A stretch of 64,000 nucleotides of DNA, taken from positions 1 to 64,000 of the forward strand of contig DVJQ01000049.1 in NCBI GenBank assembly GCA_018716625.1, in the 5' to 3' direction. Under the pieces are notes generated by a model. That model searched no databases, had not been told where the DNA came from, and worked only from the letters and a program-made list of their open reading frames with translations. Made by a program: the position numbers and the translations under genes. Positions 57,749 to 61,706 of the stretch are shown piece after piece (positions within the stretch are counted from its first letter, which is position 1; each line of letters begins with the position of its first letter). The stretch is from Candidatus Galligastranaerophilus intestinavium. GTDB lineage: Bacteria > Cyanobacteriota > Vampirovibrionia > Gastranaerophilales > Gastranaerophilaceae.

Positions 57749-57841
57749 AAAAAAAACTGACCCGAGAGAGCCAGTAAATTTACCACATATTAGAGAGAGG
57801 AATTAGAGAGAAAACTTTGAAACTTGTTAAGCCATATTATC
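57749..57841 (-). ncRNA. candidate small RNA or mnmE 3' RNA with strong terminator
   Basis: On the minus strand an eight-base-pair stem (ACUGGCUC/GGGUCAGU, with two G-U pairs, positions 57775-57756) has a UCUC loop and seven U after it, a clear intrinsic terminator. It lies 155 bases beyond the mnmE stop with no gene between. TATACT at 57853-57848 could start an RNA near 57841 of about 93 bases. The RNA would contain the pyrimidine tract CUCUCUAAUUCCUCUCUCU, complementary to Shine-Dalgarno sequences. It could instead be just the mnmE 3' end. Confidence 0.4.
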
Positions 57842-57930
57842 TTTACAAGTATACTATTCCCCTATTAATTTTTTTTATAACACTTTAAATAAAAAATGTT
57901 TACGTTTTGTTACAAAAAAGTTTGCAAAAA

Positions 57931-59259
57931 TTATTTTCCTATGCAAAAGTTCATAAAAATATCATTTAAAATATCTTCTGTTATTACCTCGCCGCTAATT
58001 TCGCCAAGGCATGTTATAGAAGCTTTTAGGTCAATACTTATTAAATCTTGTAACTCGTTGTTTTTTGCACCGTTTAGTGCGTTTTCAAGGGCTTCCAGCG
58101 ATTTTTTAAGGCAATACTGTTGTCTTTGATTTGTTAGAAACTCGCTCTGAGTCGGGTTTAGGTCTGAAATTTCTTCATAAATTGCTTTTTTTAACTCTTC
58201 AATACCCTCTTTTGTTTTTGAACTTATTGAAATTTCATTGTTTTTTGTTTGGTTATTGCACAGGTCACATTTGGTTCTTACTATAATTCTTTTTTTGTCT
58301 TGTGCAAGGTTAAATATTTTTTCATCAGCCTCACAAATTCCAATCTGTCCGTCGTATAAGCAAAGAACAATGTCGGCTTCTTCTATTGCAGCCTTAGATT
58401 GTTCTATTCCTATGTTTTCAACCTTATCGGGGCTTTTGTCCCTGATTCCTGCGGTATCAATCAGAGTTGCGCTAATGCCGTTTATCTCAAGCGTTTCTGT
58501 AATAGTGTCGCGTGTTGTACCCTCTATTTCGGTTACAATAGCGCGTTTAAGATTTAAAAGCGTATTAAAAAGAGATGATTTGCCCGCGTTTGGTCTGCCT
58601 GCAACAGCTATTTTTATCCCTTGTCTTAAAATGTTGTGCATTTTTGCGTTTTTTAATATGTCATTTATTTCATCAATTGCACCTTGTACTTCTGTTATTA
58701 TTTCTTCGTAGTCAACTTCTGCAACGTCTTGGGGAAAATCAAGTGAGGCAATGATTTTGCCCAAAATTGAACTTATTTTAGATTTTATTTCTTCTGTTTT
58801 TATTTTTAATAATCCACACAAGCTGCCTGCCGCACTATTAGCAGACTTCTGCGTTTTTGCGTTTATTAAGTCCAAAACAGCCTCGGCTTGTGACAAATCC
58901 ATTTTATGATTTAAAAAAGCTCTTTTTGTAAATTCTCCACGTTGCGCAAGCCTTGCCCCTTTGTCTAAAATCATATTTAAGATGTGATTAATCACAACAG
59001 GTGAGCCATGTGTTTGAATTTCTGCCACATTTTCACCTGTGTAACTATGTGGAGCGATAAAGGGCAGGACAATTACTTCGTCTATTTTTTCACCATTATC
59101 AATTATCCAGCCATGGTTTATTACTTTTGGGATAATTTTTTTTGTAAAGATTTTTTGTACTATTTCAATAGCGTTCTCGCCGCTAACCCTTATAACGCCA
59201 ATGCCTCCTTTGCTTAGTGGGGTTGCAATGGCACAAATTGTATCAAATGTGTAATTCAT
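57931..59259 (-). CDS. mnmE: tRNA modification GTPase MnmE
   Basis: A 442-residue enzyme that, with MnmG, modifies U34 of tRNAs. The N-terminal folate-binding domain starts DTICAIATPLSKGGIGVIRV, with SYTGENVAEIQTHGSPVV. The inserted G domain has GRPNAGKSSLFNTLLNLKRA, EGTTRDT and DTAGIRD. The C-terminus ends FCIGK, with the conserved Cys439. The start appears leaderless: TGA then TATTAT (minus strand 59271-59266) ends six bases before the ATG. It is divergent from yidC. Confidence 0.96.
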   Translation of the reverse strand: MNYTFDTICAIATPLSKGGIGVIRVSGENAIEIVQKIFTKKIIPKVINHGWIIDNGEKIDEVIVLPFIAPHSYTGENVAEIQTHGSPVVINHILNMILDKGARLAQRGEFTKRAFLNHKMDLSQAEAVLDLINAKTQKSANSAAGSLCGLLKIKTEEIKSKISSILGKIIASLDFPQDVAEVDYEEIITEVQGAIDEINDILKNAKMHNILRQGIKIAVAGRPNAGKSSLFNTLLNLKRAIVTEIEGTTRDTITETLEINGISATLIDTAGIRDKSPDKVENIGIEQSKAAIEEADIVLCLYDGQIGICEADEKIFNLAQDKKRIIVRTKCDLCNNQTKNNEISISSKTKEGIEELKKAIYEEISDLNPTQSEFLTNQRQQYCLKKSLEALENALNGAKNNELQDLISIDLKASITCLGEISGEVITEDILNDIFMNFCIGK

Positions 59260-59265
59260 ATGTGA

Positions 59266-59271
59266 ATAATA
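59266..59271 (-). promoter_or_regulatory. extended -10 for leaderless mnmE
   Basis: TATTAT preceded by TGA, ending six bases before the ATG. It overlaps a single sequence matching the DnaA box TTATTCACA (59269-59261). Confidence 0.45.
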
Positions 59272-59334
59272 TCATGTTTAGGGTAAAATTAAAATTGATA
59301 ATCGCCAAATTGGCATGACAACATAGGAGAGAAT

Positions 59335-60414
59335 ATGGATTTTGTAGGATTTACCCTTTCGATATTGCAGGCGCTTGCAAAGTTTGCAGGCAACTGGGGT
59401 CTGGCTATAATACTTTTGACAGTTATTGTAAGAGCTTGTATGTGGCCATCGAGTATCAGTCAACAGCGCTCTATGAGGAATATGCAGCTTTTGCAGCCTA
59501 AAATGAAGGCAATTCAAGACAGGTACAAAAGTAACCCTCAAATGATGCAACAAAAGATGATGGAGTTTTATAAGGAGCATAAATTTAACCCTATGGCGGG
59601 TTGTTTGCCTCTTTTGTTGCAGTTACCGATTTTTATTTTGCTCTACACTGCTCTTATGAGTCCTCAATTTATACAACAGGCAGGTGACGCGAGTTTTCTT
59701 TTCATTAAAAGACTTGATGCAACAATTAAGTCAACCGCAGGTCAATCATTTGACGGCAAATTTGTTGTCGGACCTTATGACAGTTTTACTGCAGGCAAGA
59801 GTGCAAAAGTATATCTTGAAGATAAGGTTTTGGACAATGTTAAAATTGACAGACCGACTAAGGCAATAGCAGTTCAGGGTGAAATTAAACCAAATCAGAA
59901 TTTTGACCTTAAAATGTACCCTGACAGCTTAAAACTTACTTTTGCAGAATTAAAGGCAATTAAAAAAGTTGAGGTAAATGTAATAGATAACCAAACAAAA
60001 GAAACGGAAAAAGTAACATTTACCCCGATGAACAACATACTTGCGGCAAATGTTCCCGTTGCACAGGTTCAAAGCTCAATTCATTATGATGTCATATTCC
60101 TTGTTTTACTTTTTGCTCTTACTATGTGGGTTTCGCAAAAGGTTATGATGTCAACACAAAAAGGCGTTCAGCAAGACGCTACTCAGCAGGCAATTCAAAA
60201 GTCCATGGGTACGGTTATGCCTCTTATGATTGGTCTGACATTCATTTTTATTCCGATTCCCGCAGGTGTACTGCTCTATCTTGTAACAAGTAATATTTTC
60301 CAAATTGTTCAGACTGTTATAATAAATAAACAGCTTGATAAAGAAAATTCTCATAAAAATCAAGACAATTTAGCGGATGATGCAAAGGTAATTGAAGCCA
60401 AAGAAGTTAAGTAG
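59335..60414 (+). CDS. yidC: membrane insertase YidC/Oxa1 with inserted domain
   Basis: A 359-residue insertase for inner-membrane proteins. The first core span has the conserved Arg33 (LTVIVRACMWP). The cytoplasmic hairpin (MQLLQPKMKAIQDRYKSNPQ) is followed by LPLLLQLPIFILLYTALM. The last spans (VIFLVLLFALTMWVSQKV and IPIPAGVLLYLVTSNIFQIV) are typical. Between residues about 128 and 245, where most YidC proteins have a short extracytoplasmic loop, lies a beta-rich polar domain of about 115 residues. The large N-terminal domain of Gram-negative YidC is absent. AGGAGAG precedes the ATG; a strong terminator follows. Confidence 0.94.
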   Translation: MDFVGFTLSILQALAKFAGNWGLAIILLTVIVRACMWPSSISQQRSMRNMQLLQPKMKAIQDRYKSNPQMMQQKMMEFYKEHKFNPMAGCLPLLLQLPIFILLYTALMSPQFIQQAGDASFLFIKRLDATIKSTAGQSFDGKFVVGPYDSFTAGKSAKVYLEDKVLDNVKIDRPTKAIAVQGEIKPNQNFDLKMYPDSLKLTFAELKAIKKVEVNVIDNQTKETEKVTFTPMNNILAANVPVAQVQSSIHYDVIFLVLLFALTMWVSQKVMMSTQKGVQQDATQQAIQKSMGTVMPLMIGLTFIFIPIPAGVLLYLVTSNIFQIVQTVIINKQLDKENSHKNQDNLADDAKVIEAKEVK

Positions 60415-60435
60415 AAACGTTTTTTAATATTTTTT

Positions 60436-60459
60436 AGCCCGCGTTTGCGGGCTTTTTTA
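60436..60459 (+). terminator. intrinsic terminator after yidC
   Basis: AGCCCGC (60436-60442) pairs with GCGGGCT (60447-60453) over GTTT, followed by a T-run. Confidence 0.88.
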
Positions 60460-60568
60460 ATATTTCTTAATATTCTTTTTTTAATAAGCAATTTTTTTAT
60501 TCAAAAAAACTTTATTAAAGAGTAAGGGAATTAAATTTAAAAGGAAGATAACAAGATATAATAAGACT

Positions 60569-60661
60569 TTAGAAAAAACTAAAGTATAAAAGATATATTT
60601 ATTACTCTCTCTTAATATCCTCGTGTTTTAAATGTTTGCAATATTAGCAAACATTTTTTTT
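60569..60661 (+). ncRNA. candidate small RNA between yidC and fliA
   Basis: yidC already has its own terminator, yet a second plus-strand intrinsic terminator lies at 60630-60661 (AAATGTTTGC/GCAAACATTT plus a T-run). TATAAT at 60557-60562 would start an RNA near 60569 of about 93 bases. It has a 5' hairpin (TTTAG/CTAAA with an A-loop), a middle with CUCUCUCUUAAUAUCCUC, and the terminator. No ORF of note is present. No good -35 is seen. Confidence 0.4.
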
Positions 60662-60675
60662 ATTTGTAACATTAA

Positions 60676-61503
60676 CTATATTATTGATTTGTTCAGTCTT
60701 TCGGTGCGTTTTGCGCTTAAAATGTTTCTTAATTTCATAATAGCTTGCGCATGCAGCTGGCAAACGCGCGATTCTGAGACATTAATTGCTTCTCCGATTT
60801 CTTTTAGTGTCATGTTTTCATGATAGTAAAATACAAGCAACATTCTTTCTCTTTCGGGCAGCTTTTTAAGTGCTGCTTCAAGTTCGCGTTTCGCGTCTTT
60901 TTTCTCTATTTCTTCTTCAGGGCGAGCACTGTTTTTATCTTCTATTGTGTCTATTATTTCGACACTTTCCTCACCGACACCTTTTTTATCGTAAATTGAG
61001 TCAACCGATGTATCAGAAGCTAAAATTTCGTCGATTTTTTCTTTTTCTATACCCATTACATCTGCTATCTCTTTATTTGTAGCAGCTCTGCCCAATTCTT
61101 GCTTTAGTCTTTCTGCGGTTAATTTTACATCTTTAATTTTTTTCCTTATTGTTCTTGGGAGCCAATCGTTAGACCTTATTCTGTCAATTATTGACCCTCT
61201 TATTCGCATAAGGGCATAAGTTTCAAATTTAGCACCTTTTGAGGGGGAAAATTTTTCAATTGCATCAATAAGACCCTCTACGCCGTAACTTGCTATATCC
61301 TCATAGGAAAAGCTTGGGGGAAGGTTTACTTTTACCCTTCCAATAACATATCGTGTAAGATAAATATATTGTACGATAAGCTTATCGCGCACAGTTTTAT
61401 TGTTGCGATCAAGATAGTACTCTTCCCAAAGGTTTTTTAGCTCCTCGTCAGATAATCTTACTATTTTCCGATATGAATCGACCTCTATGTTTTGCTGATC
61501 CAT
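60676..61503 (-). CDS. fliA: flagellar sigma factor sigma-28 (FliA/WhiG family)
   Basis: A 275-residue sigma factor. Region 2 shows PPSFSYEDIASYGVEGLIDA and GAKFETYALMRIRGSIIDRI with SNDWLPRTIRKK, a FliA/WhiG hallmark; region 3 and region 4 (MTLKEIGEAINVSESRVCQL) follow. It should direct late flagellar genes. There is no Shine-Dalgarno; TATAGT ends five bases before the ATG, near the leaderless spacing seen in neighbours. No flagellar gene is adjacent; fliD and fliS are 40 kb away. Confidence 0.92.
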   Translation of the reverse strand: MDQQNIEVDSYRKIVRLSDEELKNLWEEYYLDRNNKTVRDKLIVQYIYLTRYVIGRVKVNLPPSFSYEDIASYGVEGLIDAIEKFSPSKGAKFETYALMRIRGSIIDRIRSNDWLPRTIRKKIKDVKLTAERLKQELGRAATNKEIADVMGIEKEKIDEILASDTSVDSIYDKKGVGEESVEIIDTIEDKNSARPEEEIEKKDAKRELEAALKKLPERERMLLVFYYHENMTLKEIGEAINVSESRVCQLHAQAIMKLRNILSAKRTERLNKSII

Positions 61504-61591
61504 TTAATACTATATCCCAAGTCCTATTTAACAATATTGTCATTTAATAATGTTTTTTTGACATCATATATCTATATGAAAACAGTTGTTT

Positions 61592-61706
61592 TTGTTCGCT
61601 TTTACGGATGATGTTATATTTTTTTTGATTTTGTAAAATTAAGCTGTTACAAATTGGTAACAATTTGAATATCCCTAATCAGCCGCGAAAGCGGCTCTTC
61701 TTTTTT
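61592..61706 (+). ncRNA. candidate 80-base small RNA between fliA and rqcP
   Basis: TTGTTC (61592-61597) and TATATT (61615-61620) are 17 bases apart, giving a start near 61627. The predicted RNA has a hairpin TGTTAC/GTAACA (61645-61662), a single-stranded linker AUUUGAAUAUCCCUAAUC, and a terminator AGCCGC-GAAA-GCGGCT (61681-61696) followed by CTTCTTTTTT. There is no plus-strand gene upstream for this terminator to serve, since both flanking genes are on the minus strand and the T-run is only on the plus side. Confidence 0.45.

Follow-up and report, generated by a model that had tools for sequence, protein, structure and literature searches.

Candidate small-RNA genes with conserved pyrimidine-rich cores in the Gastranaerophilales and their possible pairing with flagellar ribosome-binding sites

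Three candidate small-RNA genes

Three intergenic loci, here called RNA1, RNA2, and RNA3, in a 64,000-nucleotide stretch of DNA (the window, contig 28 of a 1.76-Mb genome from an organism of the Gastranaerophilales) are very probably small-RNA (sRNA) genes. Their conservation across relatives, covariation, dedicated promoter-like elements, and stand-alone position are demonstrated by the comparison of genomes; by sequence, each is a stand-alone gene with a promoter and an intrinsic terminator, RNA3 by its terminator and position alone. On this comparison, the reading that we somewhat favor is that the three are independent trans-acting, antisense-type sRNA genes, with control of flagellar ribosome-binding sites included, and they may be filed as new sRNA families of this known kind that have no Rfam match.

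Each RNA would expose a conserved single-stranded stretch ahead of its intrinsic terminator, by which it would pair with target mRNAs at the ribosome-binding region and so block their translation. RNA3, acting on fliF (MS ring), and RNA1, acting on fliG (rotor), would restrain early flagellar assembly, a proposal made because RNA3 is best matched to fliF and RNA1 to fliG within the genus. The chances that early flagellar assembly is controlled by pairing with the ribosome-binding regions of these two genes are judged about even, the case being best for RNA3. Transcription of RNA1 would depend on a sigma factor of the SigB/SigF type; RNA2 would be under a different promoter, one also found before a group of genes whose products appear to be secreted or surface proteins.

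Genomic setting of the loci

The three loci lie among mnmE, panD, yidC, a sigma factor gene of the FliA/WhiG family, a gene for an S4-like protein (the S4 label is our own reading), and a sugar kinase gene. The sigma factor gene (60676..61503, minus strand; TIGR02479, 237 bits against a cut-off of 189.6) sits between RNA2 and RNA3 as a neighbor only and is part of neither. All three loci are intergenic, each closes with a hairpin and a T-run on the claimed strand, and in the reading direction no gene belongs to any of them; RNA2 and RNA3 are oriented opposite to the genes downstream of them. The pyrimidine tracts and intrinsic terminators were thus confirmed where a preliminary description, made from the window alone, had placed them. 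Its size range of 80–93 bases was kept for RNA3 (61627–61706), while RNA2 and RNA1 are better described as approximately 140 nt and 100 nt, respectively.

Terminator scans and folding are by themselves weak evidence for RNA genes. The 9-kb region holds 12 terminator-like sites, with 6.9 expected from shuffles, and the folding z scores against shuffles are −2.04 for RNA2, −3.23 for RNA3, and −0.24 for the 93-nt form of RNA1, which folds no better than its shuffles. The loci stand above the chance level because they are conserved across relatives and not because of their structure: in a check of covariance and conservation that had been set beforehand, all three were kept across species and the RNA1 terminator covaried. 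The proposal that they are sRNA genes therefore appears well supported by conservation, covariation, promoter-like elements, and changing neighbors. No Rfam 15 family was found above its gathering threshold in the window or at these loci in 20 relatives, and a search of Rfam by E-value returned chance-level matches only.

RNA1, a family found across the order

RNA1 (57749..57850, minus strand) is a candidate gene of approximately 100 nt composed of a 5′ hairpin, an unpaired core, and a terminator; it probably starts near 57850, and its homologues span approximately 83–109 nt from the inferred start to the T-tract. It was recovered across the order by BLAST, pattern, and covariance-model matches. 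BLAST located it in 29 of 38 relatives, other families included, mostly with 88%–100% core identity. When 84,980 species genomes were scanned with a pattern, 76 places matched; about three of these appear to be chance occurrences inside genes of other phyla, and the named carriers are almost all Candidatus Gastranaerophilales or Melainabacteria. The covariance model, built from the core and the terminator and run on 192 genomes of the order, matched 57 genomes that represent 7/7 families and 24/45 genera; among 386 genomes from elsewhere in the phylum, it gave nothing convincing, with two matches at E 0.03–0.07.

The 30-nt core, CUCUCUAAUUCCUCUCUCUAAUAUGUGGUA (57781..57810, minus strand), is nearly invariant in two alignments and is nearly unchanged in 45 distinct sequences, while the stem of the terminator varies with compensation. 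The mean unpaired probability of the scored core is 0.70 in 73 homologues. The terminator hairpin (57756..57775, minus strand, with the T-tract reaching 57749) is present in all homologues aligned, with 97.7% of its cells paired and both sides changed in four of six pairs; these pairing values were reached by 0–1 of 500 shuffles, and slid versions were far worse. The 5′ part is variable, so that a hairpin is predicted in some lineages only, where it is clear and of unrelated sequence, while in other lineages a 5′ AGAGGAA is able to fold back on the UUCCUCU of the core.

Several variations of this plan were also observed. A second conserved pyrimidine stretch, GCAATCTTCCTTCAATCC, lies just upstream of the core in several families outside f1 (L091, L093, L109, L119, and L129), and some f1 genera carry the variant core CTCTAATTCCTCTCTTCTAATACGT or one near it (L053, L264, and L265). 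One genome (G154) has, besides one good copy of RNA1, three dispersed repeats (L258, L259, and L260) that are nearly identical and each contain a degenerate RNA1-like core in a shared repeat setting. The core itself contains AUG-UGG-stop (57781–57793, minus strand) in 65 of 73 homologues, and a further five have AUG-stop or AUG-UUG-stop; translation of this AUG seems unlikely because no Shine–Dalgarno (SD) sequence precedes it.

Upstream of RNA1 lies the promoter-like element GTTATAA-N13-GGGAAT (57856..57881, minus strand), of the SigB/SigF type, which has the general form GTTWTAA-N12/13-GGGAAY and is kept beside many unrelated neighbors. About 70 of the 73 homologues aligned have GTTATAA, GTTTAAA, or a near variant, then 12–13 bases, then GGGAAT/C or a near variant. 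The first three letters of the −35 element are G in 71, T in 71, and T in 73 homologues, letters 2, 3, and 5 of the −10 element are G in 72, G in 72, and A in 73, and the spacer is 12–13 bases long in 71. SigB/SigF-type promoters have GTTTAA and GGGWAT-type elements 12–15 bases apart, and we take the RNA1 element to be similar to the Bacillus consensus of the SigB type. Most genomes examined encode a SigB/F/G-like sigma factor, every match being below the TIGR02980 cut-off; the genome of the window has a factor of the SigB/F type at C42:19071–19739. A scan of one genus relative (G014) found no excess of RNA1-type promoters (16 vs. 19 in shuffles).

RNA2 and its promoter-like element

RNA2 (60522..60661, plus strand) is a family-wide candidate gene of about 140 nt, recognized by sequence-model matches and alignments. 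It probably starts near 60522 rather than 60569 and is longer than first called, since a conserved promoter-like element, (R)GCAATT-N15-ACTTTAT, is located at 60487..60515 (plus strand). This element has its sole zero-mismatch match in the window there, is kept in nearly all homologues, is almost as conserved as the core, and is followed by a GTAAGG-like start. The 24-nt core, CUCUCUCUUAAUAUCCUCGUGUUU (60605..60628, plus strand), is invariant in the aligned set save for an AU insertion among its last U's; the insertion is seen in other genera, and the genus genomes that hold RNA2 have the exact 24-nt match. Stem changes in the terminator (60630..60656, plus strand), located by the terminator scan, are compensated between genera. 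RNA2 was matched in 165 of 192 genomes, comprising nearly all of family f1 and none of f2–f7, by a model of sequence only, and RNAalifold gave no consensus pair.

The RNA2-type promoter occurs in G014 at 12 sites scoring ≥18, compared with one in shuffles, mostly 20–65 nt ahead of genes that encode unknown proteins, seemingly secreted or on the surface (e.g., C17:13401, C2:91272, C11:10317, and C13:30457). As candidate targets, the genes sharing this promoter are no better than other genes (p 0.06 and 0.15) or than SD genes (p 0.14 and 0.12). Two more intergenic, pyrimidine-rich, terminator-ended RNA candidates with an RNA2-type promoter were seen on contig 2 of G014 (L300:12359–12510 and L303:7949–8120). 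Both carry CACACUAACYUUC, the complement of which, AGGTTAG, is enriched in G014 leaders (17 genes in −60..−1, three further upstream, and none in coding controls).

RNA3, RNA1, and the flagellar genes

RNA3 (61627..61706, plus strand) is an sRNA candidate at the genus level, present in 13 of 14 genus relatives and confined to the genus. It consists of a 5′ hairpin, GUUAC...GUAAC (61646..61661, plus strand), which is compensated as GUUAUC...GAUAAC in another species, an invariant core, AAUAUCCCUAAUC (61668..61680, plus strand), and a GC-rich terminator (61681..61696, plus strand) found by the terminator scan. Alignment and a leader search identified the core as complementary to the fliF ribosome-binding site. 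Its 13-nt perfect complement, AGGGATATTTAAT, occurs once in the 1.56 Mb of G014 on either strand, at that site, and the longest match in any of 30 simulated sets of 1,513 leaders was 12 nt. Of the 13 genus genomes in which the fliF start could be read, 12 have GGGATATTT at the same place of fliF, and in the other, G007, fliF has ATTAGGGATA, which allows ten pairs with RNA3 in a shifted register; across the genus, the match spans 12–13 nt. The RNA3 of the window itself has G in place of one A, and the fliF pairing is kept via a G-U pair. The adjacent sigma factor gene was rejected as a target of RNA3: its leader (GGGAUAU) offers only 7 bp, which 95 of 1,513 genes equal.

In the genus, a sequence resembling AGAGAGAAGAAUUAAAGAGA lies in the start region of fliG and is the complement of most of the RNA1 core, with duplex energies from −18.9 to −25.1; this stretch is absent in G007, though G007 keeps the RNA1 core. 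Against dinucleotide shuffles, in counts that treat related species as separate and after several target ideas had preceded the flagellar one, the RNA3–fliF energies were matched by 0–1 of 150 shuffles, while among the 13 species having the fliG stretch the RNA1–fliG energies were equaled by 0–7 of 150 shuffles in 12 and by 18 of 150 in the thirteenth. The preliminary description had proposed that these RNAs block ribosome binding, and conserved complementarity to ribosome-binding sites is good for RNA3 and fliF, which favors the proposal, moderate for RNA1 and fliG within the genus, which favors it less strongly, and none for RNA2, which leaves that RNA without support.

RNA1 also tends to occur where a true flagellar FliF is encoded. 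In 192 genomes, RNA1 and the true flagellar FliF were both found in 44, RNA1 only in 13, FliF only in 30, and neither in 105 (Fisher 1e-12, a statistic that ignores kinship); the counts by genus are 20/4/7/14 in the same order (p 0.0009) and, within family f1, 8/4/4/14 (p 0.024). The exceptions are genera g37, g39, g3, and g42, with RNA1 but without FliF, and genera g32, g33, g9, and most of g35, with FliF but without clear RNA1. Many gut lineages without FliF are also without RNA1, yet keep RNA2. Nearly all of 39 relatives, including those without true flagellar FliF, show a second protein that is distantly FliF/SctJ-like (E values of about 1e-10 to 1e-18). Beyond the genus, the pairing between RNA1 and fliF is weak, at a median z of −1.1 (p 0.02 vs. 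other genes). It was set aside as a candidate, being strong by base shuffles but weak by dinucleotide shuffles, with fliF barely ahead of its neighboring genes.

Genome-wide targets and alternative explanations

Targets were searched in one genus relative (G014; 1.56 Mb read, 1,520 genes called), about half of whose genes have an SD. The RNA1 duplex energy is ≤−16 at 263 of 1,513 start regions compared with 99 of 1,254 coding controls, and fliG ranks 11th of the 1,513 genes. These figures bear on the possible, though not probable, reading that the RNAs are global anti-SD regulators, whose cores bind many purine-rich ribosome-binding sites, flagellar genes being just two of many. The frequency of SD sequences, the excess of strong duplexes, and a 30-nt conserved core that exceeds the need of one short target all speak for it, and Yfr1 is reported to bind many ribosome-binding sites. 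However, composition-matched shuffled cores give similar counts, 3 of 24 shuffled RNA1 cores attain the best energy observed, and the 13-nt RNA3–fliF match is unique in the genome read. The energy signal for general anti-SD pairing was no better than that of shuffled cores, and single-genome ranking by duplex energy was discarded as stand-alone evidence because the best energies are equaled by shuffled cores. The top RNA1 match, a putative secreted-protein family with AGAGAG ribosome-binding sites, was rejected as a target because the sites vary. On contig 5 of G014, a protein with an Annexin domain (L320:6128–7177; PF00191, E 3e-8), unusual in bacteria, is encoded beside a family of glycine-zipper-like proteins whose ribosome-binding sites read AGAGAG.

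It is unlikely that the single-stranded core instead binds an RNA-binding protein and thereby titrates or guides it: conservation this close to perfect across 30 nt would suit a protein site and G014 has a CsrA homologue (Hfq was not found there by phmmer), but the cores are without GGA, the usual CsrA contact, and the RNA3 pairing evidence is specific. Least probable by far is that the loci are leaders, attenuators, or 3′ UTR pieces of their neighbors (panD or mnmE for RNA1 and the divergent sigma factor gene for RNA3), a reading that draws on RNA1 always adjoining panD within the genus of the window. For RNA1 it is largely refuted: the neighbors outside the genus are unrelated and in either orientation, RNA1 has its own promoter-like element and terminator, and a TATAAT stands immediately before the start of panD itself. 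The orientation of RNA2 and RNA3, opposite to that of the next genes downstream, also speaks against it. Since its neighbors fall into approximately 69 different protein clusters in both orientations, RNA1 is not the leader or tail of one gene.

Comparison with known small RNAs

Among known systems, the three RNAs appear functionally closest to Yfr1 and Yfr10 of cyanobacteria. Yfr1 is a cyanobacterial sRNA of 54–69 nt, near-universal in its group, with the unpaired undecanucleotide ACUCCUCACAC between two flanking stem-loops, the 3′ one of which is the terminator (PMC2190773). The likeness lies in a short sRNA of a sister class that has a single-stranded, ultraconserved pyrimidine core with CCUC before the terminator, often after a 5′ hairpin. 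In contrast, the RNA1 core is CUCUCUAAUUCCUCUCUCUAAUAUGUGGUA and not ACUCCUCACAC, RNA1 is approximately 100 nt long, and its 5′ part is variable, pairing with the core in some lineages instead of forming a hairpin. Because the defining motif is missing, in none of 73 RNA1 homologues and with best matches of 8/11 in RNA1 and 7/11 in RNA2, RNA1 is not Yfr1. A Yfr1 census by a motif-plus-terminator pattern was too strict to inform (1 of 194 genomes).

Yfr1 and Yfr10 share a UCCU-type motif in different structures within one organism (PMC6778093). RNA1 and RNA2 resemble the Yfr1/Yfr2/Yfr10 network in being two sRNAs per organism with a shared motif in different contexts, but their cores diverge outside CUCUCU...UCCUC, and no Yfr2-like sponge was found. 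RsaE, a C-rich-motif sRNA of Gram-positives, has an exposed pyrimidine tract aimed at ribosome-binding sites; RNA1–RNA3 share this trait but differ in motif, phylum, and promoters, and no sequence relation to RsaE was seen. No described small RNAs of Gastranaerophilales were found in the open-access literature searched.

Significance for the Gastranaerophilales

The Gastranaerophilales are a largely uncultured, non-photosynthetic, gut-dwelling order of the cyanobacterial phylum. A speculative extension, to which we give rather less than even weight, is that five or more pyrimidine-rich sRNAs directed against ribosome-binding sites form a network in this order, driven by two dedicated types of promoter. 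RNA1 and RNA3 would then act together to gate how the MS ring and rotor are assembled, and gut lineages would have lost and replaced these RNAs in the wake of losing their flagella. An order-wide RNA1, with its 30-nt core, stress-sigma-type promoter, and link to flagella, would offer an entry point into regulation in organisms where manipulation is not yet possible, as well as a point of comparison for Yfr1, the sRNA of their photosynthetic relatives.
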